Assembly (NCBI GenBank): GCA_024401555.1
Contig: JAKSKV010000034.1
Span: 1-33,126 of the forward strand
Direction of reading: 5' to 3'
DNA: 33,126 nucleotides
Source: Paludibacteraceae bacterium
GTDB taxonomy: Bacteria; Bacteroidota; Bacteroidia; Bacteroidales; Paludibacteraceae
Position 1 is the first letter of the stretch. Every line of letters begins with the position of its first letter. The notes beneath the pieces are model-generated. The model was not told where the DNA came from and did not search any database. It was given only the letters and a program-made list of their open reading frames with translations. Below are positions 350-10,302 of the stretch, piece by piece. The position numbers were made by a program, and so were the translations under genes.

Positions 350-383
350 AAGGGCGGAATATCAGTATATTCCGCCCTTTTTT
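350..383 (+). terminator. Rho-independent terminator
   Basis: A perfect 13-bp stem (350-362 with 367-379, core GGGCGGAATA) with a 4-nt loop runs into six T residues. It ends transcription of the upstream carbohydrate-active gene. Confidence 0.9.
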
Positions 384-474
384 GTGAATTTTGTGGCAGA
401 AAATAATCGTGAAGATTGGTGCGATATTAATGATGGATGAAAGGATATTAATGTACCTGTTTCCCTTACAGCCT

Positions 475-482
475 TACTTTTG
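475..482 (+). promoter_or_regulatory. Bacteroidota-type -7 promoter box
   Basis: TACTTTTG matches the TAnnTTTG -7 consensus of Bacteroidota. It lies about 30 bp upstream of the start codon at 512, just after an intergenic terminator. No clean -33 TTTG was found at the expected spacing. Confidence 0.55.
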
Positions 483-511
483 CATCAAATCAAAATCAAA
501 ACATTTAAACC

Positions 512-2455
512 ATGAAAGTCATTTTTAGAACAATCGCATCGTTCATGTTGTTGGCAAATGTTTCCATTGCCTCTGCGGTTACATTAAAAGTGGAATTGGG
601 CGATAGCATTCGTCCTGTGACGCATTGCGCTTCGGGTTCCCTTTATGGTATCACGGAGAATGAACCAAGAGATATTCAAGGTCTGGTGGCTCCGTTGAAG
701 CCACACATGTTCTGCCAACCGCCAGAGGGACAAAGTTACAACCAACACCCTTATGGAGATGGTTACATCGTGGCGAAGAGAATCAAGGATATTCCGGGTG
801 CGGCGGTACAGATCACTTTGCCTGACCTTTTGCCGAACTGGCCCTACAAGTGGCCTGGCATCAATAGCTGGCTCAGCTCCGTGGAGAAGCAGGTCAAGAG
901 AAGATTCAGCGAAGGGGTGGATAACATCCATAGTTACGTAATCTGGAATGAGCCAGACGGTACTTGGAACAATAACAATGGTGATATCAAATCGACGGTA
1001 TGGAAACCAACTTATGAGTTGCTCCGCAAATTGGACCCTAAGACTCCTATCGTCGGTCCGTGTATCGCCTACTACCACGAACAGAGAATGAGAGAGTTCT
1101 TGAAGTATTGCAAAGAGAACAACTGTTTGCCCGATATGATCTGTTGGCACCAATGGGGTAGTGGCGGATTGGCCGGCGCTGTGAATAGTGTCCGCAAGTT
1201 GCAGCAAGAGTTGGGAATTCCTGAGCGTCCATACTGTATCAACGAATACTGTGCGGGTTCTGATGCGGAAAACCAGAAGTATGAGGGTTGTCCGGGATAC
1301 TCCGTACCGTTCATCGCGAAGTTCGAGCGTTACGGCATCGAGAGCGCGACCATCTCATGGTGGCACGTGCCGCACCCAGGCCGTTTGGGCAGTTTGTTGA
1401 CCGACGATGGCCAGAAGGGCGGCGGTTGGTGGCTATACAAGTGGTATGGCGATATGGAGGGATATATGTCTAAGGTGACTCCTCCAAACGATAACAGCGA
1501 TGGTGTGGATGGCTTCGCGTGCGTGGATAGAGCCCACAACTGCGCAAGCATCGTTGTCGGTGGCAAGACATTGGGTACAACTGATGTGGTCATCTCAAAG
1601 ATACCAGACTTCCTTAGCGGCACTGTTAGGGTTAGGGTGGAGCGTGTGACTTGGAAGAGCATCAATACCCCTGTAAATGGCACGGAATTGGTTTCCGAGT
1701 CAGATATGACTGTCAACGGAGGTACGCTTACCGTCCCTGTTAGGATCGAGAGCGAGTTGTATGGTTACCGTGTGTACATCACGCCGCTCAATGTGCCTCA
1801 AAACCCTTACAATGACAAGATGGCCACGATCCCAGGTCGTGTGGAGGCGGAACTTTTCGATGTTGCTGGCCAAGGTTTTTCTTTCTATGATAACGATGAT
1901 GAAAACAAAGGTGACGCGAAGTTCCGTACCAACGAAGGGGTGGATATCGTGAAGGCTGGCGAAGGCATGGCAATCGGATATACCGAGAAGGGAGAGTGGA
2001 CCGAATATACCATTGATGTGACGGAAACCAACGAGTATGACATCACAGCTAATGTCTCCAATGGAGGCGAGGTGGAGGGGTTTAAGTTGTTCCTCGATGA
2101 CAAGGAGTTGACCACATCCTATACCATTCCCAAGACTTGCGACGATTGGAGCGTATATGAGGAGGTCTCTGTAGCGAAGAGTCGCATCGAAAAGGGGCAG
2201 CACATTCTGAAACTTCAGATTGCGGGAAGCTATGTCAATGTGGATTGGTTGGCTTTCACGGTTCATGATCCTACCGGTTTGGAGGATATCGATACCCTTG
2301 GCTGGGAAGATGTTGAGAACATGGCGGATGCCGAATTCTATGATATGGAGGGTATGCGCGTCAGCAGAGGTGCGTTGCAGTTGGGCAGGGCCTATATTGC
2401 GGTCACTCCACAAAACCGAAAGGGTGTGAAGTTTGTAAAATATGAAAACAGATAA
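512..2455 (+). CDS. Secreted clan GH-A type glycoside hydrolase with C-terminal CBM6 module
   Basis: A 647-residue exported protein. Residues 1-22 form a signal peptide (hydrophobic core, SIASA cleavage). The catalytic region, about 35-430, looks like a clan GH-A TIM barrel: WNEPD places a candidate acid/base Glu at residue 147, and CINEYC a candidate nucleophile at Glu245. The start of the mature protein (ASGSLYGITE) resembles GH39-like xylosidase/arabinosidase-type enzymes, but I cannot fix the family. Residues about 440-583 are a classic CBM6 beta-sandwich (VEAE start, GEWTEYTIDV, YVNVDWLAF end). A tail (EFYDMEGMRVSR, then GRAYIAVTP) resembles degenerate type IX sorting or Bacteroidales tail domains. 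It has its own -7 box and terminator, so it is probably monocistronic; substrate is likely a plant or host polysaccharide. Confidence 0.8.
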   Translation: MKVIFRTIASFMLLANVSIASAVTLKVELGDSIRPVTHCASGSLYGITENEPRDIQGLVAPLKPHMFCQPPEGQSYNQHPYGDGYIVAKRIKDIPGAAVQITLPDLLPNWPYKWPGINSWLSSVEKQVKRRFSEGVDNIHSYVIWNEPDGTWNNNNGDIKSTVWKPTYELLRKLDPKTPIVGPCIAYYHEQRMREFLKYCKENNCLPDMICWHQWGSGGLAGAVNSVRKLQQELGIPERPYCINEYCAGSDAENQKYEGCPGYSVPFIAKFERYGIESATISWWHVPHPGRLGSLLTDDGQKGGGWWLYKWYGDMEGYMSKVTPPNDNSDGVDGFACVDRAHNCASIVVGGKTLGTTDVVISKIPDFLSGTVRVRVERVTWKSINTPVNGTELVSESDMTVNGGTLTVPVRIESELYGYRVYITPLNVPQNPYNDKMATIPGRVEAELFDVAGQGFSFYDNDDENKGDAKFRTNEGVDIVKAGEGMAIGYTEKGEWTEYTIDVTETNEYDITANVSNGGEVEGFKLFLDDKELTTSYTIPKTCDDWSVYEEVSVAKSRIEKGQHILKLQIAGSYVNVDWLAFTVHDPTGLEDIDTLGWEDVENMADAEFYDMEGMRVSRGALQLGRAYIAVTPQNRKGVKFVKYENR

Positions 2456-2482
2456 TATCCTAAGTTAATACGTGTTAGTTTG

Positions 2483-2518
2483 AATGCCCAGTTGCTGTGA
2501 AGTGACTGGGCATTTTTT
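2483..2518 (+). terminator. Rho-independent terminator
   Basis: Stem AATGCCCAGT (2483-2492) pairs with ACTGGGCATT (2505-2514) and the T run extends to 2518. It terminates the glycoside hydrolase gene just before the first repeat copy. Confidence 0.9.
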
Positions 2519-2535
2519 CTTAGAGTCATAGGGTT

Positions 2536-2741
2536 GTTAGGCGGAAATCTTTGCGTACGCCTCGTTGATTTTGGCCATCATCGCCTCGCATTCCTCTTTA
2601 CGGTTGGCGTTTTTCGGAAGGTCAGGATGGTGCTGTAGCGCCAATTGGTGTTCCGTACGGCAGTGTATGGTTGCCTAATAATTACGTTAGAAATATTTGA
2701 AAATAAGATTTCTCTGTTTGAAATAGTGAATGTGAAACAAG
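2536..2741. repeat. Repeat copy 1: displaced 3' end of the djlA-like gene plus shared cassette leader
   Basis: Bases 2536-2648 nearly duplicate the 3' end of the intact J-domain gene at 4852-5631. In minus-strand translation they give the end of the J domain, through HHPDLPKN and INEAYAKIS, and then a different stop context (AYAKISA, stop). They differ from copy 2 at two positions in 113 bp. Homology to the gene stops exactly at the 8-bp palindrome CCAATTGG (2641-2648). From 2649 to 2741 a second shared segment, absent from the intact gene, leads into the cassette and resembles the leader of copy 2. The copy has no start and is not expressed protein; it fills most of the 342-bp gap between 2456 and 2797. 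Confidence 0.93.
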
Positions 2742-2797
2742 GATTTAGCAATAAGTTTAGTTATTTTTGTGTTAAATATAATTTCAAAATCAAATGT

Positions 2798-3136
2798 ATG
2801 CGAGGAAAAGAGAAGTGTAAGATCTTAAGGGAAATCAGACAGCGTATCGCTTCGGAGAATGATATTCCATTTGTGACCAGTGAGTGTCAACACAAAGGGG
2901 AGTGTAAAGGTACTTGCCCGAAGTGTGAGGCGGAACTAAGATTCCTGGAGAGGGAGTTGGAGAAGCGTGGTAAATGGAAGATGTTGATTCCAGCGACAGG
3001 AATCGCGGCGTTATCGTTGGCATCATGCGGAGATCCTATGGAAGGGGACATTGCTTTCGATCCAATTCCGGTAGATACCACTGTCACCGACACTACGAAC
3101 CCCGTGACTACGGATTATCAATTTCCGCAAGAATAG
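2798..3136 (+). CDS. Small Cys-rich protein with internal lipobox-like segment, candidate radical SAM substrate
   Basis: A 112-residue protein. The ATG at 2798 is preferred because upstream in-frame sequence belongs to the repeat leader. Residues 1-57 are charged and helical with a CX5CX3CX2C cluster (C30, C36, C40, C43; ECQHKGECKGTCPKCE), plausibly metal-binding. A basic stretch (EKRGKWK) and a hydrophobic segment follow (62-76), ending in LASC-G at Cys77, which resembles a lipoprotein signal but sits unusually far from the N terminus. The last 35 residues are acidic and Thr-rich (VDTTVTDTTNPVTTDY). Its TAG stop overlaps the GTG start of the radical SAM gene by one base (TAGTG), indicating coupled translation. 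I recognise this kind of small protein beside radical SAM genes in Bacteroidales but no established function; a RiPP-type precursor is an inference. Confidence 0.75.
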   Translation: MRGKEKCKILREIRQRIASENDIPFVTSECQHKGECKGTCPKCEAELRFLERELEKRGKWKMLIPATGIAALSLASCGDPMEGDIAFDPIPVDTTVTDTTNPVTTDYQFPQE

Positions 3137-3768
3137 TGGTAAACATAGAGGCTCCCATTATAGGGATTGAAAGGCATCGACTGGCATCCGACGGGCAAGG
3201 AGTAACCACTTTGGTGGGCTTCTGGGGTTGTCCGTTGCAGTGCAAGTATTGCCTGAATCCTCAATCTTGGAAGGTGAAACCAACCCGTTTTTATACACCG
3301 GAGGAGCTGATGGCCATTGTCAGCATTGATCAGCTCTACTTTATGGCGACAGGGGGTGGTGTTACTTTCGGGGGCGGGGAGCCGTTGCTCTATTCCGACT
3401 TTGTCGTAGCTTTTCGAGCGCTCTGCGGTGAAACGTGGAATCTTTCCGTGGAGACATCTCTGAATGTCCCGACATCCCAATTGGAGAAAATCTTTCCTGC
3501 GGTGAACCACTTCATTGTGGATTTAAAGGAGTCAAACGAGTCGATTTACCGTTCATATACAGGCAAGGGGAACCAGCAGGTCATCGACAACCTAAATTGG
3601 CTTTTGGCGCATTTGGCAGTGGAAAATATAACCGTTAAGTTGCCTCATATCCCAGGGTACAATACAGCGGACGATGTGGCGGCCAGCGAGGCTTGGCTGA
3701 AGGAGTTGGGAATCTTTCGGATAGACCATCTCACCTATCGTACCGATGAACATATCAAGAAGGTCTAG
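3136..3768 (+). CDS. Minimal radical SAM protein (activase/maturase-like)
   Basis: About 210 residues from the GTG that overlaps the upstream stop; a longer open frame upstream runs through the small protein in another frame and is not used. GFWGCPLQCKYC carries the CX3CX2C motif (C32, C36, C39) that binds the 4Fe-4S cluster in radical SAM enzymes. VTFGGGEPLL is the Gly-Glu motif contacting S-adenosylmethionine, and VDLKE resembles glycyl-radical activases of the PflA/YjjW group. The chain is short for that group and lacks extra ferredoxin-like clusters. No glycyl-radical enzyme lies in the window; the only partner is the translationally coupled Cys-rich small protein, which suggests it acts on that peptide. 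The exact reaction cannot be read from sequence. Confidence 0.82.
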   Translation: MVNIEAPIIGIERHRLASDGQGVTTLVGFWGCPLQCKYCLNPQSWKVKPTRFYTPEELMAIVSIDQLYFMATGGGVTFGGGEPLLYSDFVVAFRALCGETWNLSVETSLNVPTSQLEKIFPAVNHFIVDLKESNESIYRSYTGKGNQQVIDNLNWLLAHLAVENITVKLPHIPGYNTADDVAASEAWLKELGIFRIDHLTYRTDEHIKKV

Positions 3769-3777
3769 TGAAGAGAC

Positions 3778-3993
3778 GTTAGGCGGAAATCTTTGCGTAC
3801 GCCTCGTTGATTTTGGCCATCATCGCCTCGCATTCCTCCTTACGGTTCGCGTTTTTCGGAAGGTCAGGATGGTGCTGTAGCGCCAATTGGATGTTTCCTA
3901 CGGCAATGTACGGTTGCCAAATAATTACGTTAGAAATATTTGAAAGTAAAAAAGAAATCGTACCTTTGTTTAAAATAGTGAATGTGAAACAAG
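3778..3993. repeat. Repeat copy 2: displaced 3' end of the djlA-like gene plus shared cassette leader
   Basis: Bases 3778-3890 match copy 1 at 111 of 113 positions and match the intact gene's 3' end (4867-4969) except at two positions near the stop. The gene-derived part again ends at the palindrome CCAATTGG (3883-3890). Bases 3891-3993 share with copy 1 the segments TACGGCA, AATAATTACGTTAGAAATA and ATAGTGAATGTGAAACAAG. The repeat sits between the end of the radical SAM gene and the start of the two-TM gene, so each cassette is bounded on both sides by djlA 3'-end sequence. All copies are in the same orientation. Confidence 0.93.
3961..3968 (+). promoter_or_regulatory. -7 promoter box inside the repeat leader
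   Basis: TACCTTTG fits TAnnTTTG and lies about 70 bp upstream of the gene at 4040, within the leader shared by both cassettes. The equivalent place in copy 1 (near 2711-2720) has lost a clean match, so the first cassette may be expressed more weakly or from another site. Confidence 0.55.
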
Positions 3994-4039
3994 TTATATA
4001 GTAATAAGATTAATATTATGGGTGGTGATTGAGTGAAAT

Positions 4040-4795
4040 ATGGAGTGGTTAAAGAAGTATTGGTTAAACTTGCTTAATATTTCAGCAAGTTTGTGTTCTA
4101 TTGCAAGTATTCTTCTTCTTTTGTTTGCTGATAAAGACAAAGCCTTATTAGCGTTGGTTTTTGTTGTTATTTTTCTAAGTGCTGTTTTAGTTGTCATCAT
4201 AGTTGGAATCTTCAGATTTACAAAGAAGGAGAATGTTGAGGATTTTAAAATAGTAACTATATCTGCATCCTATGAAACATTCGACAAAAGTAAGGCAGAA
4301 TATAATGTCTATAAGGTTATTCAATCGAAGGTGGCTTGCTTGACAACAGTCAAACAGCAATTTAAGTGGACAGGAACAAATCAGCCTGAATTGTCTTCAG
4401 ATTTTCAGGATATAAAAAAAATAAATGTTCTGAATGATGAGGAAGCCTACGATAATGTAATTTTAGGCATTAGGAATCCTATTTTATATAATGGAACAAC
4501 GACAATTCATTTAAAGGCTAAATTGGATGATTATGATGGCAAATCTAAACCTCTATTAAGTCAAAGGATTGAGTTCCCCGTTGATTTGGCAAGGTTAAGG
4601 GTTGTCTTAAGGGACAAATCGGATTCGTTTGACAAAGTTGCGTATTTAGAAAAACGGAAAATCAAGTGTTCCCCATTAACTTCTGATTATAAGATTGTTG
4701 AGTCTATATCTTTTGACAAGGCAAGTAAGAGTTACAGTTATAATTTGATTAATCCTGAAGTGGGTTATATATATCGAATTAGATGGGAAAAATAG
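4040..4795 (+). CDS. Two-TM membrane-anchored protein of unknown function
   Basis: 251 residues. Two hydrophobic segments (about 11-29 and 35-58), separated by a short charged turn (ADKDKA), form a membrane hairpin. Residues 60-251 are soluble and look beta-strand rich, with no motif I recognise. The gene is visibly AT-richer than the flanking housekeeping genes and lies between two djlA 3'-end repeats, both signs of acquisition. The overall shape, a 2TM hairpin followed by a beta-rich domain, is reminiscent of membrane effectors in bacterial anti-phage systems such as the S-2TM-beta class, but no nucleotidyltransferase or other defence gene is adjacent, so this is only a suggestion. The start at 4040 is the first ATG after the leader. 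Confidence 0.7.
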   Translation: MEWLKKYWLNLLNISASLCSIASILLLLFADKDKALLALVFVVIFLSAVLVVIIVGIFRFTKKENVEDFKIVTISASYETFDKSKAEYNVYKVIQSKVACLTTVKQQFKWTGTNQPELSSDFQDIKKINVLNDEEAYDNVILGIRNPILYNGTTTIHLKAKLDDYDGKSKPLLSQRIEFPVDLARLRVVLRDKSDSFDKVAYLEKRKIKCSPLTSDYKIVESISFDKASKSYSYNLINPEVGYIYRIRWEK

Positions 4796-4851
4796 TACGA
4801 AAGTAGTTTGCTTTTTTAGTTGCTTTAGGATATTTATATTGTTGTCCATTT

Positions 4852-5631
4852 TTAAACATTACCACTAATCTTCGCATACGCCTCGTTGATTTTGGCCATC
4901 ATCGCCTCGCATTCCTCCTTACGGTTCGCGTTTTTCGGAAGGTCAGGATGGTGCTGTAGCGCCAATTGGTGATAAGCCCTCTTCACCTCTTCAGGAGAGG
5001 CGTTCTCGGATAAGCCCAACAAATTGTAGTAGGGCTTTAGGTAGTTAATGGAGTTACTGTAGCTCCTTCTCTCTTGGTGGTCGGTATGGTAGGAGTAGGA
5101 GTCGAACTCCGTGCGCAACGGCTGAAAACGTTGGTTGAAATAGTTGATCCAATGTTCGTTGAAATTGGCTCCTTTCATGATCGTTTGCAACAACTTCCAT
5201 TCATCATTTTTGATGCCGTCTTCTGTGGCTGCCAACTTAAAGAATAGGGTAACTATACTCTTCCATGTTCCGGTTTCTTGTTTTCTGATATATGCGAAAG
5301 CTTCTGCCAAAGTCTTATCCAACGATGGATTGTCCAAGAAGGGAATGGCGTCGTCGCTATAGGTCTCTTTTAAAATATCTACTTGATTCGCTCGGGCGGA
5401 GGGGTTGAGTTGCGTGATTTGCCGTATGATCACGGAGAGATAGACGCCCTCCTTTTTGTAGTGTTTATATTTACGCACATATCTACGCAAACGGGTATCC
5501 CAGAAGTATGAGAAATAGTTTCTCTTTACCCTTTTTGCCGAAGTGTCAAAATATATTAACAATGGCGCAAGGATAATAACGATGATCGAGGCGATGAAGT
5601 TGAATATTCTATAGTATGTGATCTTTCTCAT
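4852..5631 (-). CDS. DjlA-like membrane-anchored J-domain protein
   Basis: 259 residues. An N-terminal transmembrane segment (about 10-28) is followed by a charged linker, a helical TerB-like middle region (about 75-190), and a C-terminal J domain (about 200-256) with the invariant HPD at 228-230. J domains stimulate DnaK ATPase; DjlA-type proteins do this at the inner membrane. It is the last gene of a minus-strand operon, five bases after yjbQ. Its last ~34 codons (from the CCAATTGG at 4962-4969 to near the stop) are present twice more at 2536-2648 and 3778-3890. The intact copy ends KISGNV, the displaced copies KISA, so its very 3' end appears to have been replaced. Confidence 0.85.
   Translation of the reverse strand: MRKITYYRIFNFIASIIVIILAPLLIYFDTSAKRVKRNYFSYFWDTRLRRYVRKYKHYKKEGVYLSVIIRQITQLNPSARANQVDILKETYSDDAIPFLDNPSLDKTLAEAFAYIRKQETGTWKSIVTLFFKLAATEDGIKNDEWKLLQTIMKGANFNEHWINYFNQRFQPLRTEFDSYSYHTDHQERRSYSNSINYLKPYYNLLGLSENASPEEVKRAYHQLALQHHPDLPKNANRKEECEAMMAKINEAYAKISGNV
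4867..4969. repeat. Repeat copy 3: 3' end of the intact djlA-like gene
   Basis: This is the in-gene version of the 103-bp sequence displaced at 2536-2648 and 3778-3890. It differs from copy 2 at only two positions, both close to the stop codon. The inner boundary is the palindrome CCAATTGG (4962-4969), beyond which the gene continues while the other copies change to the cassette leader. Confidence 0.93.
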
Positions 5632-5636
5632 AGCTA

Positions 5637-6047
5637 TTATTCATAAATAGTGGCTACAATTTTTCTTGCACCCCCTGCTGCGCGGAATTCGCAGAGATAA
5701 ATGCCCTGCCAAGTACCCAAGTTGAGTCTGCCATTCGTGATGGGGATGTTGAGGCTCACACCAAAGAGGGAACTCTTCGCATGGGCGGGCATATCGTCAT
5801 CTCCTTCCAAAGTATGGTCGTAGAAGGGTTGGTTCTCAGGAACCATCTTATTGAGGATCTTCTCCATGTCACTGCGCACATCCGGATCCGCGTTCTCGTT
5901 GATGGAGAGGGCGCAAGAGGTGTGCTTCACAAATAGATTCAATAGGCCTGTTTTAGGCAATGGGGGCAGTTGCTCCAAGATTTCTCTGGTGACAAGGTGG
6001 CAGCCCCTGCGTTTGGCCGACAGTGCGAATTCTACTTGTTGTATCAT
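5637..6047 (-). CDS. yjbQ: YjbQ family protein (UPF0047)
   Basis: 136 residues, the usual length. It shows the family's HTSCALSINENAD signature near residue 63, the acidic DDDMPAHAKSSLFG segment and the GTWQGIYLCEFR strand near the C terminus. Members form small trimers and have been reported to show weak thiamine phosphate synthase activity, but the physiological role is unsettled. It lies between rluD (11-bp gap) and the djlA-like gene (5-bp gap), consistent with one transcript. Confidence 0.9.
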   Translation of the reverse strand: MIQQVEFALSAKRRGCHLVTREILEQLPPLPKTGLLNLFVKHTSCALSINENADPDVRSDMEKILNKMVPENQPFYDHTLEGDDDMPAHAKSSLFGVSLNIPITNGRLNLGTWQGIYLCEFRAAGGARKIVATIYE

Positions 6048-6058
6048 GGTGGATGGCT

Positions 6059-7144
6059 CTAATCGTCAAGATTTCCTCCTTGGGCGAATCTGCGCCACTT
6101 TTCGATGAGTTGGCGGAAATCATCGGGCCATTCAGAGTCGAAATAGAGCTCTTCGCCAGTGGTAGGGTGGACAAAGCCCAAGGTCTTGGCGTGGAGAGCT
6201 TGCCTTGGGCAAATCTCCAAGCAGTTCTTCACGAATTGTTTGTATTTAGCGGTGGTGTTGCCGCGTAGAATTTCCTTGCCGCCATAGCGTTCATCCGCAA
6301 AGAGGGTGTGTCCGATGTGTTTCATGTGGACACGTATTTGGTGGGTACGGCCTGTCTCCAATCTACACTCCACGAGGGTAACGTAGCCGAAACGCTCCAA
6401 TACACGGTAGTGTGTCACCGCATGTTTGGCATTGGGATTTTCACCTTCGGGGAAGACGGTGAAGAGCATACGATCCTTCGGGTCGCGGCCCAGGTCACCT
6501 GTGATGGTTCCTTCATCCTCCACGATATTTCCCCAAACCAAGGCATTGTAGAGTCGCTTGGTCGTTTTATTGAAAAATTGTTTGCCCAAATGGGTCTTCG
6601 CATCCTCGTTCTTGGCGATGACCAATAGGCCGGAGGTGTCTTTGTCGATGCGGTGGACCAGTCCCAATCGGGGGTCATCCACATTGAAATCAGGGTTGTC
6701 CTTGAGATACCAAGCCAATGCGTTGAGCAGGGTGCCTTGGAAGTTGCCGAAACCTGGATGCACCACCATACCTGGTTGTTTGTTGACCAATACGACATCC
6801 TTGTCCTCATAGACGACGTTGATAGGAATATCCTGTGGGATGATCTCAAAGTCTGATGGTGGGTAGGAGAGCATAACGGATATCACATCCAATGGCTTCA
6901 CGCGGTAGTTGGATTTTACGGGATTACCGTTGACGAGAATGCACTTCGCGTCGGCCGCATCCTGGATACGGTTGCGGGAGATGTTGGACATGATATTCAC
7001 CAGATACTTGTCGATACGGACCAACGAGTGCCCCTTTTCGACCGTAAACCGGAAGTGTTCGTGGAACTGTCCGTCGCCTCCCAATTCGGCGCCGCCTTCT
7101 CCCTCCTCGTTCTCTAAATCTTCAAGTGTCTCCTCTGCGATCAT
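6059..7144 (-). CDS. rluD: RluA/RluD family 23S rRNA pseudouridine synthase
   Basis: 361 residues. An acidic N-terminal extension (1-30) precedes an S4 RNA-binding domain (about 40-95) and the pseudouridine synthase domain. HRIDKDTSGLL places the catalytic Asp at 167, and RTHQIRVHMKHIGH is the conserved second motif. S4 plus this core is the RluC/RluD layout; the RluD assignment (U1911/1915/1917 region of 23S rRNA) is the usual one but is not proven here. Its start overlaps the PASTA gene stop by four bases (ATGA), indicating translational coupling. Confidence 0.9.
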   Translation of the reverse strand: MIAEETLEDLENEEGEGGAELGGDGQFHEHFRFTVEKGHSLVRIDKYLVNIMSNISRNRIQDAADAKCILVNGNPVKSNYRVKPLDVISVMLSYPPSDFEIIPQDIPINVVYEDKDVVLVNKQPGMVVHPGFGNFQGTLLNALAWYLKDNPDFNVDDPRLGLVHRIDKDTSGLLVIAKNEDAKTHLGKQFFNKTTKRLYNALVWGNIVEDEGTITGDLGRDPKDRMLFTVFPEGENPNAKHAVTHYRVLERFGYVTLVECRLETGRTHQIRVHMKHIGHTLFADERYGGKEILRGNTTAKYKQFVKNCLEICPRQALHAKTLGFVHPTTGEELYFDSEWPDDFRQLIEKWRRFAQGGNLDD

Positions 7145-7995
7145 TTGAACAACTCCTCTTCTTCCGTCTTAGCCTCTGATGGATTCTCCTCGTTGTAGTA
7201 GATCTCCTCTGGAGTCTCTAACAATGAGAGATCTTTGGTCATATAGAGTTTGATGGCGCTACCCATGCTTACCTTAGCTTCCGTAACGGGTTCTTGCTTG
7301 TAAACGACATATTGAGCCTTCTCGTCTTCGTCGATAGGTTGTTCGTTGTAGATGACCGTACCGATGTTTAGGAAAGAGGTGTGGGCCATGTTGGTGGCGC
7401 GTTCCAAGGTGAGCTTTCTGAAACTTGGCACCTCGCACAACTCGTTGTTCAATCCTCTTCCGACGAATAGCGTGACAGCGGATCCCTCTGGGATGCGCGC
7501 GCCCACTTCCAACGGCATATTCTTCTGTTTCACATATTGCACCAAGTCTTTGAACTCCGAAGTGACATAGACGATGCTATCCACCTTGATTCCGACCGAA
7601 CGGAGCATGGATTCAGCTTGTCTGAGGGAGTATTCGCGGACATCAGGCACAGTCACTTTTCTGACGGTGGAGGAGTTGACGATAAGGTAGATCGTTCTTC
7701 CCGCCTTGATTTTATCGCCCGCTTTCGGAGTCTGTTCGACGATGGAGCCCAATGTTTTACCCTTCACATAGATGGAGTCCACCACAGATGCTTTCAGGGA
7801 TTGTTTGCTCAACAGCAACGCAGCCTCATCCGTCGTCATGCCGGAGAGATCGGGCACGGGGAATTCCTGTCCGTGGTTGGTATAGGAGTCCAACCAAGAA
7901 AAGACCGCCTTGTAGATGATGACAACAAGCAAAAGAGCCGCTACAATACTGATAGTGTAAGGGTTGATGAATATTTTCTTCGCATCTATTTTCAT
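7141..7995 (-). CDS. PASTA-domain membrane protein
   Basis: 284 residues. One N-terminal transmembrane helix (about 13-35) is followed by three PASTA repeats (about 46-110, 113-180 and 188-255), each with the pattern VPD(L/V), then a hydrophobic helix, then GSxI/V-YLxV. An acidic Glu-rich tail follows. PASTA domains bind peptidoglycan fragments or muropeptides in kinases and PBPs; here no kinase or transpeptidase domain is attached, as is common for Bacteroidota PASTA proteins. It is first in the PASTA-rluD-yjbQ-djlA operon and has a -7 box about 35 bp upstream. Confidence 0.9.
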   Translation of the reverse strand: MKIDAKKIFINPYTISIVAALLLVVIIYKAVFSWLDSYTNHGQEFPVPDLSGMTTDEAALLLSKQSLKASVVDSIYVKGKTLGSIVEQTPKAGDKIKAGRTIYLIVNSSTVRKVTVPDVREYSLRQAESMLRSVGIKVDSIVYVTSEFKDLVQYVKQKNMPLEVGARIPEGSAVTLFVGRGLNNELCEVPSFRKLTLERATNMAHTSFLNIGTVIYNEQPIDEDEKAQYVVYKQEPVTEAKVSMGSAIKLYMTKDLSLLETPEEIYYNEENPSEAKTEEEELFK

Positions 7996-8027
7996 AAGAC
8001 AGAATATCGTTTTAAATATAATTTCTA

Positions 8028-8035
8028 CAAATGTA
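8028..8035 (-). promoter_or_regulatory. -7 promoter box for the PASTA-rluD-yjbQ-djlA operon
   Basis: On the minus strand TACATTTG matches TAnnTTTG, about 33 bp before the PASTA start codon. Confidence 0.6.
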
Positions 8036-8061
8036 CGATAATTTTTGGGACTTACTGCCCG

Positions 8062-8241
8062 TTACCAAAACTTATTCTGTCCCTCGTTGTACTCGAAGCC
8101 GCCTTCCGCCAATTTGGCCACCAACTCCTCTCGGTTGATATCCATGGAGTCGCAAAGTTCATCCAACGAACTGTACTCATCCCGTAATTTCATGTTGACG
8201 AAGCTGAGCAGCATGCTGATGTTTTCTGGCAATTGTTCCAT
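8062..8241 (-). CDS. DUF4250 domain-containing small protein
   Basis: 59 residues beginning MEQLPENISMLLSFVNMKLR, with SSLDELCDSMDINREELV and ending FEYNEGQNKFW. This is the DUF4250 pattern: an LP..-MLLS-VN-KLRD start, a helix-turn-helix-like middle, and a tyrosine/asparagine-rich end. The function of the family is unknown; the short helical fold looks like a small DNA-binding or adaptor unit. It lies between rpmH and the PASTA operon and is too short for usual length cut-offs. Confidence 0.85.
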   Translation of the reverse strand: MEQLPENISMLLSFVNMKLRDEYSSLDELCDSMDINREELVAKLAEGGFEYNEGQNKFW

Positions 8242-8270
8242 TGTATGGTGTTGTTTTATTGTTAATGGAT

Positions 8271-8302
8271 AAAAAACAAAGGCGCACCTGAAAGATGCGC
8301 CC
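8271..8302 (-). terminator. Terminator downstream of rpmH
   Basis: On the minus strand, GGGCGCA (8302-8296) pairs with TGCGCCT (8286-8280) around a short loop, followed by a T-rich run read through 8271-8279. It separates rpmH from the DUF4250 gene. Confidence 0.75.
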
Positions 8303-8327
8303 TATTCCTTCTTTGTTTCGAGAAAGA

Positions 8328-8486
8328 TTATCGTCTTGTAGTGTACTCGTCAGAAACAGTCAATTTCTTTCTTCCGTGTGCTCTACGAGATGCCAATACT
8401 CTGCGTCCGTTAGCAGTCTCCATTCTTGAACGGAAACCATGCTTGTTCTTTCTCTTTCTGATTGATGGTTGAAATGTTCTTTTCAT
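8328..8486 (-). CDS. rpmH: 50S ribosomal protein L34
   Basis: 52 residues, very basic, beginning [20 protein letters not shown] with the conserved [21 protein letters not shown] core. The extension after the core ([11 protein letters not shown]) is typical of Bacteroidota. It has a well-formed promoter upstream and a terminator downstream, so it appears to be a single-gene unit; the dnaA/rnpA neighbours seen in many phyla are absent. Confidence 0.97.
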
Positions 8487-8546
8487 TGCCGTGTATTTTT
8501 ATTATTATTTTTATTTCTTTTATTTTCTACATCCAATTTCGGATTG

Positions 8547-8577
8547 CAAAGATAGTGGTTTTCTCCGATATATCAAA
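8547..8577 (-). promoter_or_regulatory. Full Bacteroidota promoter for rpmH (-33 and -7 boxes)
   Basis: Minus strand: TTTG at 8577-8574 and TATCTTTG at 8554-8547, separated by 19 bp, the spacing expected for the TTTG / TAnnTTTG consensus. This is the clearest promoter in the window. Confidence 0.8.
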
Positions 8578-8605
8578 TTGTTAATAACTTTTTTTGCGAA
8601 AAAAC

Positions 8606-9649
8606 TCACTTTCCACGAAGGATGTCGCTGATCTTGTTGATAATCAAACTGTTGTCTATATTGTTGAGGCATGCGTAATCGCCTCTTCTGCAAGGCTCCT
8701 TACCGTAAATGGAACAAGGACGGCAAGGAAGATCGAGTTGCACCGCATGGTCGGGATGCTGTCCGTAGCCATAAAATCCGGCGAATGGGTGGGTGGCGCC
8801 CCAGATAGAGACAACCGGTGTCCGCACCAAAGAGGCGAGGTGCATATTGGCGGAGTCCATGGAGAGAAGCACATCGCAGTGATTTAGAATCTGTAACTCC
8901 TCCATCAGTGTGAATTTGCCTGCGAGGGATAGGGTATGAGGGTATCGGGCTACCCAACCGTCGAATACTTCGCTCTCCTTCTTCCCTCCACCGAAGAGGA
9001 GTATTTGTGTATCCTCCTGGGCGGCGAAGTGGGCGATGACCGCCTCCGTCTTCTCCAGGGGAAGAATTTTTCCCTTGTGCTGTGCGAATGGTGCCATTGC
9101 CACTCTTTTCGCATAACTATTCGCACCTATCTCCTTCTCGAGCTGAGTAGGGAGAGGGGCCGATTTGTCGATTAGCCCGTCGAAATCGATTTGGAAAGGG
9201 TAGCCAGCCTTCTCGAAGACCTCCAAGTAGCGTTGGATGGAGCTCTTGAGCTGTTTTTTCTCTTTGTTGTCCGCCGATACGAGTCTCTTCTTCTCGCTGC
9301 GACCCTTGTCGATGACAAACACTGGTTTGCCTGATGCGCGGAGGATAGTTCTGAGGATTTTGCTACGCAGGACGTCGTGCAGGTCAACCATTTTCTCGAA
9401 GCGATAATTGCGTCTTAAATGGTTGAAGAGCTTCACCATACCGAAGGTGCCCTTGTAGGTTTGTTTCGTGTCAACTGGCACAAAGGTGACGCGCTCCATT
9501 CCCTCAAAGAGGGTGGAGAGGCGGGGTGTTGATAGCATAATCACCCCTATGTTGGGGTAGGCTTGAAGAAAAGAGGCAATAACGGGGACCGTCATTGCCA
9601 CATCTCCCATAGCGGAAAGCCTCATTACCAAAAGGTTCTTCTCCACCAT
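8606..9649 (-). CDS. Glycosyltransferase family 9 (heptosyltransferase-like)
   Basis: 347 residues. The N terminus LLVMRLSAMGDVAMTVPVI is the GT9 start motif, and the C-terminal half holds the nucleotide-sugar region (SMDSANMHLASLVRTPVVSIWGATHP) typical of ADP-heptose:LPS heptosyltransferases. These transfer heptose or related sugars to lipid A core. The next upstream gene is DUF4254, seven bases away, a pairing I recall as usual in Bacteroidota. The acceptor cannot be told from sequence. Confidence 0.88.
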   Translation of the reverse strand: MVEKNLLVMRLSAMGDVAMTVPVIASFLQAYPNIGVIMLSTPRLSTLFEGMERVTFVPVDTKQTYKGTFGMVKLFNHLRRNYRFEKMVDLHDVLRSKILRTILRASGKPVFVIDKGRSEKKRLVSADNKEKKQLKSSIQRYLEVFEKAGYPFQIDFDGLIDKSAPLPTQLEKEIGANSYAKRVAMAPFAQHKGKILPLEKTEAVIAHFAAQEDTQILLFGGGKKESEVFDGWVARYPHTLSLAGKFTLMEELQILNHCDVLLSMDSANMHLASLVRTPVVSIWGATHPFAGFYGYGQHPDHAVQLDLPCRPCSIYGKEPCRRGDYACLNNIDNSLIINKISDILRGK

Positions 9650-9656
9650 TGCGCTA

Positions 9657-10262
9657 TTATTTCTTTCCGTAAAGGATCGGATTGAGGTTCGGATCGTTGT
9701 ACATCTTCATTTGCTTGTACACCTTCATGTAGCGGTCGCCGTTCTCTATATCCTTGATGAGCTGGTCGATCGCGGAGGAGAGATCCTCGCGTTGCTCCAA
9801 AAGAACATCCAATTTCTTTTGGCAAGCGGCTTTGTGTTCAGCTGAGACATCGGTTCTCTCCACCTCGTTGCGCATGTGATAAATTTTGAGTGCGAGGATG
9901 GAAAGGCGGTCGATTGCCCATGCGGGGCTCTCGGTATTGATGACAGCGGATGGTTTTACCTTCACGCTGGCATATTTCTCCAGAAAATAACTGTCGATTC
10001 TCTCCACCAAGTCAGTTCTGTCTTGGTTGGACTTGTCGATTCTACGCTTGATGGCCAAAGCCTCAACGGGGTCGATTTCCGGGTTTCTGATGATATCCTC
10101 GAGGTGCCATTGTACGGTGTCGATCCAGTTTTTGAGATAAAGAACGCTCTCGATGGTTTGTGCCTTGAATGGGTTGACCATAACTGCGTCCACATCATCT
10201 GTTTTGTGGTAATCGACAATGACTCCGTCGAATAACTTGTTTGCGTCTTGACTGAAACTCAT
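9657..10262 (-). CDS. DUF4254 domain-containing protein
   Basis: 201 residues, highly charged and helical. It matches the DUF4254 layout (VIVDYH near the start, then ESVLYLKNWIDTVQWHLED and SPAWAIDRLSILALKIYHM). The function is unknown. It is first in a two-gene operon with the heptosyltransferase-like GT9 gene, so a role in LPS or glycan assembly is a reasonable guess. Confidence 0.88.
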   Translation of the reverse strand: MSFSQDANKLFDGVIVDYHKTDDVDAVMVNPFKAQTIESVLYLKNWIDTVQWHLEDIIRNPEIDPVEALAIKRRIDKSNQDRTDLVERIDSYFLEKYASVKVKPSAVINTESPAWAIDRLSILALKIYHMRNEVERTDVSAEHKAACQKKLDVLLEQREDLSSAIDQLIKDIENGDRYMKVYKQMKMYNDPNLNPILYGKK

Positions 10263-10302
10263 ATTGTTTGGGTATTACAATATTTTTGCTACATATTTTA
10301 GG

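Follow-up and report, generated by a model that had tools for sequence, protein, structure and literature searches.

In a 33,126-nucleotide stretch of a Paludibacteraceae genome (assembly GCA_024401555.1, contig JAKSKV010000034.1; the whole stretch is called the window), two small gene units stand in tandem at the 3' end of a djlA-like J-domain gene, accompanied by displaced copies of that 3' end. We consider it very probable that the units were added at the djlA 3' end and that the old ends were displaced in the process. Everything described rests on a single locus of a single genome (G000; 3.52 Mb in 159 contigs, of which the window is contig C88).

Displaced djlA ends and an empty site in a relative

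Sequence of 103-113 bp from the djlA 3' end is present three times in one orientation (minus strand): at 2536-2648 (copy 1), at 3778-3890 (copy 2, separating the two units) and, as the working 3' end inside the gene, at 4867-4969 (copy 3). Copies 1 and 2 differ at 2 of 113 positions, copy 2 and the gene end at 2 of 103 (3788-3890 versus 4867-4969), and copy 1 and the gene end at 4 of 103 (2546-2648 versus 4867-4969); the first two counts, given in an earlier note made from the letters of the sequence, were reproduced. Copies 1 and 2 begin with the old stop codon (GTTAGGC..., or GCC TAA C on the strand of the J-domain gene). The present gene matches them only from AATCTT at 4867 on, because it ends in ...KISGNV*, whereas copies 1 and 2 and the djlA of a relative, genome G008, end in ...KISA*.

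The gene-internal border of the repeats is the palindrome CCAATTGG, to within 2 bp (2641-2648, 3883-3890 and 4962-4969), with two extra bases in common between copy 1 and the gene. Elsewhere in the window, the palindrome is found at 44, 3477, 10498 and 11451. Past the border, copies 1 and 2 run first into a common leader (leader 1, 2649-2797, with 26.5% G+C over 2651-2797; leader 2, 3891-4039; both read on the plus strand) and then into unlike genes. When aligned, the leaders share 90% of their bases over 58 bp and 93% over a 30-bp stretch; this similarity, about 95-125 bp long, fades gradually instead of ending sharply; otherwise the border, the leader and the different genes behind it are as described earlier. 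A pattern scan of leader 2 gave a match (TTG-N18-TACCTTTG, 3940-3968) to what we take to be the Bacteroidetes-type promoter motif. The proposal that the cassettes carry promoters stands to this extent for leader 2 and fails for leader 1, where the same pattern found no match. A comparison of positions 2400-5100 with Rfam gave no match at E values up to 1.

Each unit consists of a leader, one or two genes and a replacement djlA 3' end, which leaves djlA whole and the displaced ends at the far side and between the units. Unit 1 comprises 1,242 bp (78% coding) and unit 2 1,079 bp (70% coding).

The history of the locus can be read against G008 (locus L067), the sole comparable relative. There, the order is glycoside hydrolase gene, one djlA end, djlA, yjbQ and rluD, and neither unit is present. 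Window positions 377-2650 and 4867-10269 both align to this locus and overlap in it only within the djlA end. Since G008 thus represents an empty site with both flanks collinear, the two units were most likely acquired after the split from the G008 lineage. Copy 1 adjoins the original flank and is therefore the displaced old end; on these alignments, the present gene end (SGNV, not SA) is the altered one. That two units were gained at the djlA 3' end, which was restored while old ends were displaced, had been proposed beforehand, and the empty site now supports it. A comparison of related genomes at djlA had been suggested as well; it yielded G008 with no unit, and no further comparable locus, as djlA and yjbQ were absent from the vicinity of the 12 rluD loci of other genus members (two of them, L180 and L181, being short stretches).

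Might the arrangement instead be an assembly artefact of a fragmented genome? G000 is split into many contigs, and the J-gene ends of its relatives often coincide with contig ends. On the other hand, the three copies are non-identical, the open reading frames (ORFs) of the cargo are intact, the radical SAM gene of unit 1 and the 251-aa ORF of unit 2 were each found once in the genome at the thresholds used, and both flanks are collinear with G008, which makes such an artefact highly improbable.

Four codons vary among the three copies. Each of the four differences (4/4) is synonymous, and the displaced copies encode the same residues as the gene. The probability that a random change in the repeat stretch is synonymous is 0.19 when all changes are counted, 0.22 at a kappa of 2 and 0.33 for transitions alone; four of four would therefore be expected by chance at about 0.001-0.012, although four sites are few. 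Since residues remained unchanged throughout, the differences most likely arose while each copy ended a working djlA, which fits a capture of ends from different djlA alleles; gene conversion from the gene could have contributed to the similarity of the copies. As to the earlier alternative of recent events or homogenised copies, the events, or at least their J ends (as we call these 3' ends), look recent. Whatever the route of entry, recent capture from working alleles can be tested simply in sequence data, by asking whether displaced ends differ only at synonymous sites.

Possible routes of entry

We favour, tentatively and with somewhat less than even confidence, a site-specific entry of both units at the djlA 3' end by a recombinase that acted in trans or has been lost. 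This reading is preferred because both units use the same border and a constant leader fronts unrelated cargo. Each unit would have entered as a circle or an equivalent form through site-specific recombination near CCAATTGG, with an attP-like module formed by the J end plus leader and with attB provided by the djlA end, and catalysis would have come from a recombinase encoded elsewhere or since lost. One entry would have carried a slightly different end, thereby changing the djlA C-terminus from SA to SGNV. As cargo, unit 1 carries the radical SAM/Cys-rich pair, and unit 2 a gene of foreign base composition whose product is probably a membrane protein. A mobile unit would be expected to combine a constant end with variable cargo, as is seen, and ends taken from working djlA genes would be expected to show only synonymous differences, as all four do. 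If entry was site-specific, the locus presents an unusually small non-autonomous unit that stacks at the end of a protein gene, and would give Bacteroidales of the gut a natural means of banking single genes while the target stays intact.

Several results weigh against this reading. Neither unit holds an integrase or transfer gene in its ORF list or in family scans; for integrases, the earlier note had already said so. Seven integrase matches were found in G000, and in their loci (match plus 1.5 kb on each side) no exact match of at least 12 bp to the leaders was detected; the proposed search for an integrase elsewhere with a matching site found nothing beyond one 12-bp exact match to the djlA end in one of the seven loci. 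The leader as such was absent outside G000 among 358 family genomes (best two candidates per genome). Matches of 23-48 bp to its AT-rich part (E 4.5e-5 to 9e-4) occur in 20 other family genomes, and among 393 genomes drawn from the order there was one 38-bp partial match besides G000. Likewise, no bare djlA end was seen elsewhere among the 358 family genomes (10 shorter-frame candidates inspected). Exact leader and J-end patterns retrieved nothing from viral contigs, nor did J end and leader from plasmids or phages with the queries tried, so that these sets gave no second trace of the site-specific mover that the earlier note proposed. The palindrome loses its value as a mark of the repeats: CCAATTGG occurs seven times in the window, with 0.8 expected, and eight times in 398 kb sampled outside the window in G000. 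The junction folds no better than shuffled sequences (z-scores of -1.3 to 0.4), with no notable hairpin or attC-like structure. Finally, units of 1.1-1.2 kb are much smaller than published elements.

A somewhat less probable but serious competitor is sequential RecA-driven homologous displacement, in which chromosomal DNA with a cargo operon beside a djlA 3' end comes in and aligns with the djlA already present, the second join being illegitimate to the old 3' end or made via the common leader/J end. No recombinase is required here, and homologous exchange seems to have acted at the locus. Within a mosaic stretch covering djlA sequence and the 3' part of yjbQ (4895-5768), the window differs from G008 at 8 of 270 positions in 4895-5164 (97% identity), at 20 of 180 in 5165-5344 (89%) and at 4 of 424 in 5345-5768 (99%). 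A sharp edge follows at 5768/5769 inside yjbQ, as the 300 bp beyond it are only 67-79% identical to G008; the left flank reaches 61-88% per 100 bp. Judged from these identities, 4895-5768 was probably exchanged recently between lineages. The displacement route also gains from genus g5, in which genomes G019 and G133 have a Cys-rich/radical SAM pair convergent with the 3' end of a full J gene (L128:5175-7384 and L129:5380-7652, with 42 bp between the J gene end and the pair in G019), so that the neighbourhood required by an anchor-and-displace event exists. Yet rluD is likewise 81-94% identical to G008, and high identity alone is therefore no proof of exchange. Furthermore, copy 1 already contains the left edge of the exchanged stretch (J-end codon 25), and the tract therefore cannot be attributed to the events that brought the units. 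A further difficulty is that both units, although unrelated in cargo, start with a common leader at an identical base, for which RecA-driven displacement needs an additional cargo swap in the leader. Should it nevertheless be correct, the locus would be a clean miniature, outside toxin systems, of the displacement proposed for type VI secretion system (T6SS)/Rhs arrays.

The identical junction and common leader could also be accounted for by one illegitimate event: a single insertion followed by tandem duplication of the whole unit through unequal crossing-over at the J ends, which 103-bp direct repeats would permit, and by replacement of one cargo. However, the J ends differ at 2 of 113 positions and the leaders at 8 of 88 aligned positions plus indels (Fisher p 0.02, with bases chosen post hoc), and the two parts therefore do not seem to be of one age, unless conversion has acted on the J ends. 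Since the cargos, moreover, have nothing in common (49.6% versus 32.5% G+C), we regard this duplication as unlikely.

Comparison with known systems

The mode outlined for site-specific entry would be comparable to that of cis-mobilizable elements (CIMEs) or of the PAISt modules. At bacA of Streptomyces turgidiscabies, PAISt shows three 3'-end copies of 138-141 bp and modules in tandem, with the crossover at an 8-bp palindrome (PMC4057263). These modules measure 105 and 569 kb and have a tested tyrosine recombinase (PMC4057263). The djlA locus is thus alike in its three protein-gene 3'-end copies, its 8-bp palindrome and its tandem modules, but unlike in having units of 1.1-1.2 kb and no recombinase that we could find.

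CIMEs are described as att-flanked elements, devoid of integration genes, that pile up where a target gene ends, and as decayed integrative and conjugative or integrative and mobilizable elements (ICEs/IMEs); in tandem accretion, the incoming element uses an att site that contains the gene end, and protein-gene 3' ends are tabulated as integration sites for many IMEs (PMC5704250). Stacking, an empty site and the absence of own integrase and transfer genes are shared by the djlA units. In contrast to CIMEs, their cargo is mostly intact (78% and 70% coding), no ICE/IME remnant was seen and no relative was found. As no full element or integrase with the same att site turned up in the 358 family genomes, the G000 integrase loci or the viral, plasmid and phage sets, we do not file the units as CIMEs.

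In Bifidobacterium, prophages of 39-43 kb with a tyrosine integrase and 35-bp cores integrate at the dnaJ2 3' end and rebuild the gene (PMC6109161). Here too, the 3' end of a J-domain gene is hit and rebuilt, although the gene and phylum are different and the elements are phage-sized. Together with PAISt at bacA (PMC4057263), these dnaJ2 prophages precede the J-domain 3' end that had been thought novel as a landing site. Of the notion that djlA is a landing site used repeatedly, the two units at djlA remain, confined to a single locus of a single genome.

Vibrio T6SS immunity arrays and Rhs orphan tips grow by successive additions that push old gene parts one way, with no evidence of an integrase (PMC5361080). 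Displaced 3' ends stacked on one side are a common feature of these arrays and the djlA locus. The 3' ends of the former are variable and come with toxin/immunity parts, whereas those at djlA are 96-98% identical with unrelated cargo in between.

Integron gene cassettes are single-gene units with a constant recombination module that are added singly. The djlA units differ in lacking an attC-like pair and an integrase of their own, and in having a constant part that codes for protein. For the attC pair (consensus RYYYAAC...GTTRRRY), the sole plus-strand RYYYAAC in 2401-5100 is at 5014; GTTRRRY occurs at 2536 and 3778, where it covers the old stop codon, and in four other places. We regard it as a speculative idea of low probability that the units belong to a new class of integrase-less mini gene cassettes of Bacteroidales, in which a constant module of J end plus leader, with a promoter in unit 2 at least, would be served by a recombinase in trans, so that unrelated genes or operons collect singly at a J-domain gene and form an integron-like array on a protein gene. 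What is novel here is the very small size, the constant leader and the lack of a recombinase; a limited open-access literature search found no description of kilobase-size stacked units with a constant leader and without a recombinase.

Genes of the locus and observations elsewhere

The djlA-like gene is intact (4852-5631, minus strand). Its product matches PF00226 with 55.3 bits and the DjlA model PRK09430 with 45.3 bits, below the cut-off of 162, so that "djlA-like" is a fair label. The left flank holds a CBM6/GH39-like glycoside hydrolase gene (512-2455, plus strand; Pfam CBM_6 60 bits, GH39 under cut-off), which adjoins djlA in G008 as well and is collinear with L067 at 78%.

Both cargo genes of unit 1 are on the plus strand. 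The first (2798-3136) encodes a Cys-rich protein of 112 aa that contains an internal hydrophobic/LASC stretch and whose relatives recur close to the radical SAM gene in other genomes. The second (3136-3768) encodes a 210-aa radical SAM protein (PF04055, 65.8 bits) that is closest to activases of glycyl radical enzymes (TIGR02494, 138.4 bits; cut-off 174.35). This gene may have been imported, as its protein is 49-58% identical to those of 11 genus genomes, where RluD is 86-95% identical. After a motif filter had dropped 14 of 26 intended relatives, however, a 13-row tree placed the radical SAM gene on a long branch near G004 and G014.

Unit 2 carries a gene for a 251-aa protein, ORF251 (4040-4795, plus strand), likely a membrane protein given its two predicted N-terminal helices; its single-sequence fold prediction has a mean pLDDT of 45, and one match to solved structures was obtained (E 0.3). 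With 32.5% G+C, it lies far below the radical SAM gene (49.6%) and the window (46.7%). A search of 149 other family genomes found relatives of ORF251 in 7, all of genera g20 and g21; no match came from phages, plasmids or viral contigs. At the thresholds used, G000 has one copy each of ORF251 and the radical SAM gene. PADLOC matches to the cargo are weak (pVip with 21 bits for the radical SAM protein; CARF_TM with 14 and ThsA with 9 bits for ORF251), and family scans revealed no toxin or immunity family.

A 210-bp probe of copy 1 plus leader 1 otherwise matched J gene ends in G000 (73-84% over 43-94 bp), all within full-length frames; two further matches (E 0.34 and 0.64) cover 33-37 bp of the leader. 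J-tail relatives amounted to 149 matches in 18 of the 358 family genomes. Ten matches in shorter frames were inspected as possible displaced J ends and rejected, six being cut by contig ends and four retaining J homology over at least about 190 residues, while the remainder were judged on frame length alone. The contig-internal candidates L077:1088-1351 and L081:810-1157 look like frame-shifted or broken J genes rather than bare ends.

The idea that the J family generally homogenises its 3' ends was considered with 40 J genes from six genomes and dismissed: fourfold-site identity is not in excess at the end in G003, G004 and G014, is marginally highest there in G000 (0.52 versus 0.11-0.44) and G008 (0.49 versus 0.21-0.46), and in G034 is clearly high in the J domain (0.87-0.90, three genes). 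Tandem arrays of up to five or six J-domain genes are present in G003, G004, G008, G014 and G034 (L071, L072, L073, L068, L075, L077, L082); their N-termini are dissimilar and their C-terminal region is conserved, and several arrays lie at contig ends.

A genome-wide habit of such duplications in G000 was likewise rejected, as scans of 431,219 bases and then of 587,953 bases with 1-kb overlaps gave no second clear case. Besides the window, they returned a partial look-alike (L190), a REP-like pair (L267), similar gene starts (L272), a repeat between two ORFs (L203) and a tandem array (L192). In the look-alike (L190:8592-9629, corresponding to G000:C149:88592-89629), a 78-bp segment from the start of a DUF456 gene recurs at a distance of 960 bp with 92% identity, and there is a truncated YhcG/DUF1016 ORF in between. 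The duplication borders a region of about 10 kb that is absent from G008 and contains an AbiH-family gene and, by eye, restriction-modification-like ORFs. Despite the similar anatomy, we treat L190 as island turnover and not as a second member of the djlA-type units, because its displaced copy has amino-acid changes (by eye) and its cargo is cut. At or near one edge of both duplicated blocks we noticed, post hoc, the 10-mer ATCTTTGCGT (window 2547 and 3789; L190 8669 and 9629, minus strand), four of its five occurrences in 431 kb being at these edges; it could be a -7 promoter box or chance.

REP-like repeats (CCCCGTACATC.../ACCCCGCACATC...) are alike at L009:3378-3464, L011:6745-6944 and L267:5788-7133, where they flank a 387-aa ORF. 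Between the J genes of the array in L077, behind the frame-shifted one, a 295-aa ORF is located on the opposite strand (L077:1455-2342, G003:C103), which presumably resembles Abi-type proteins.

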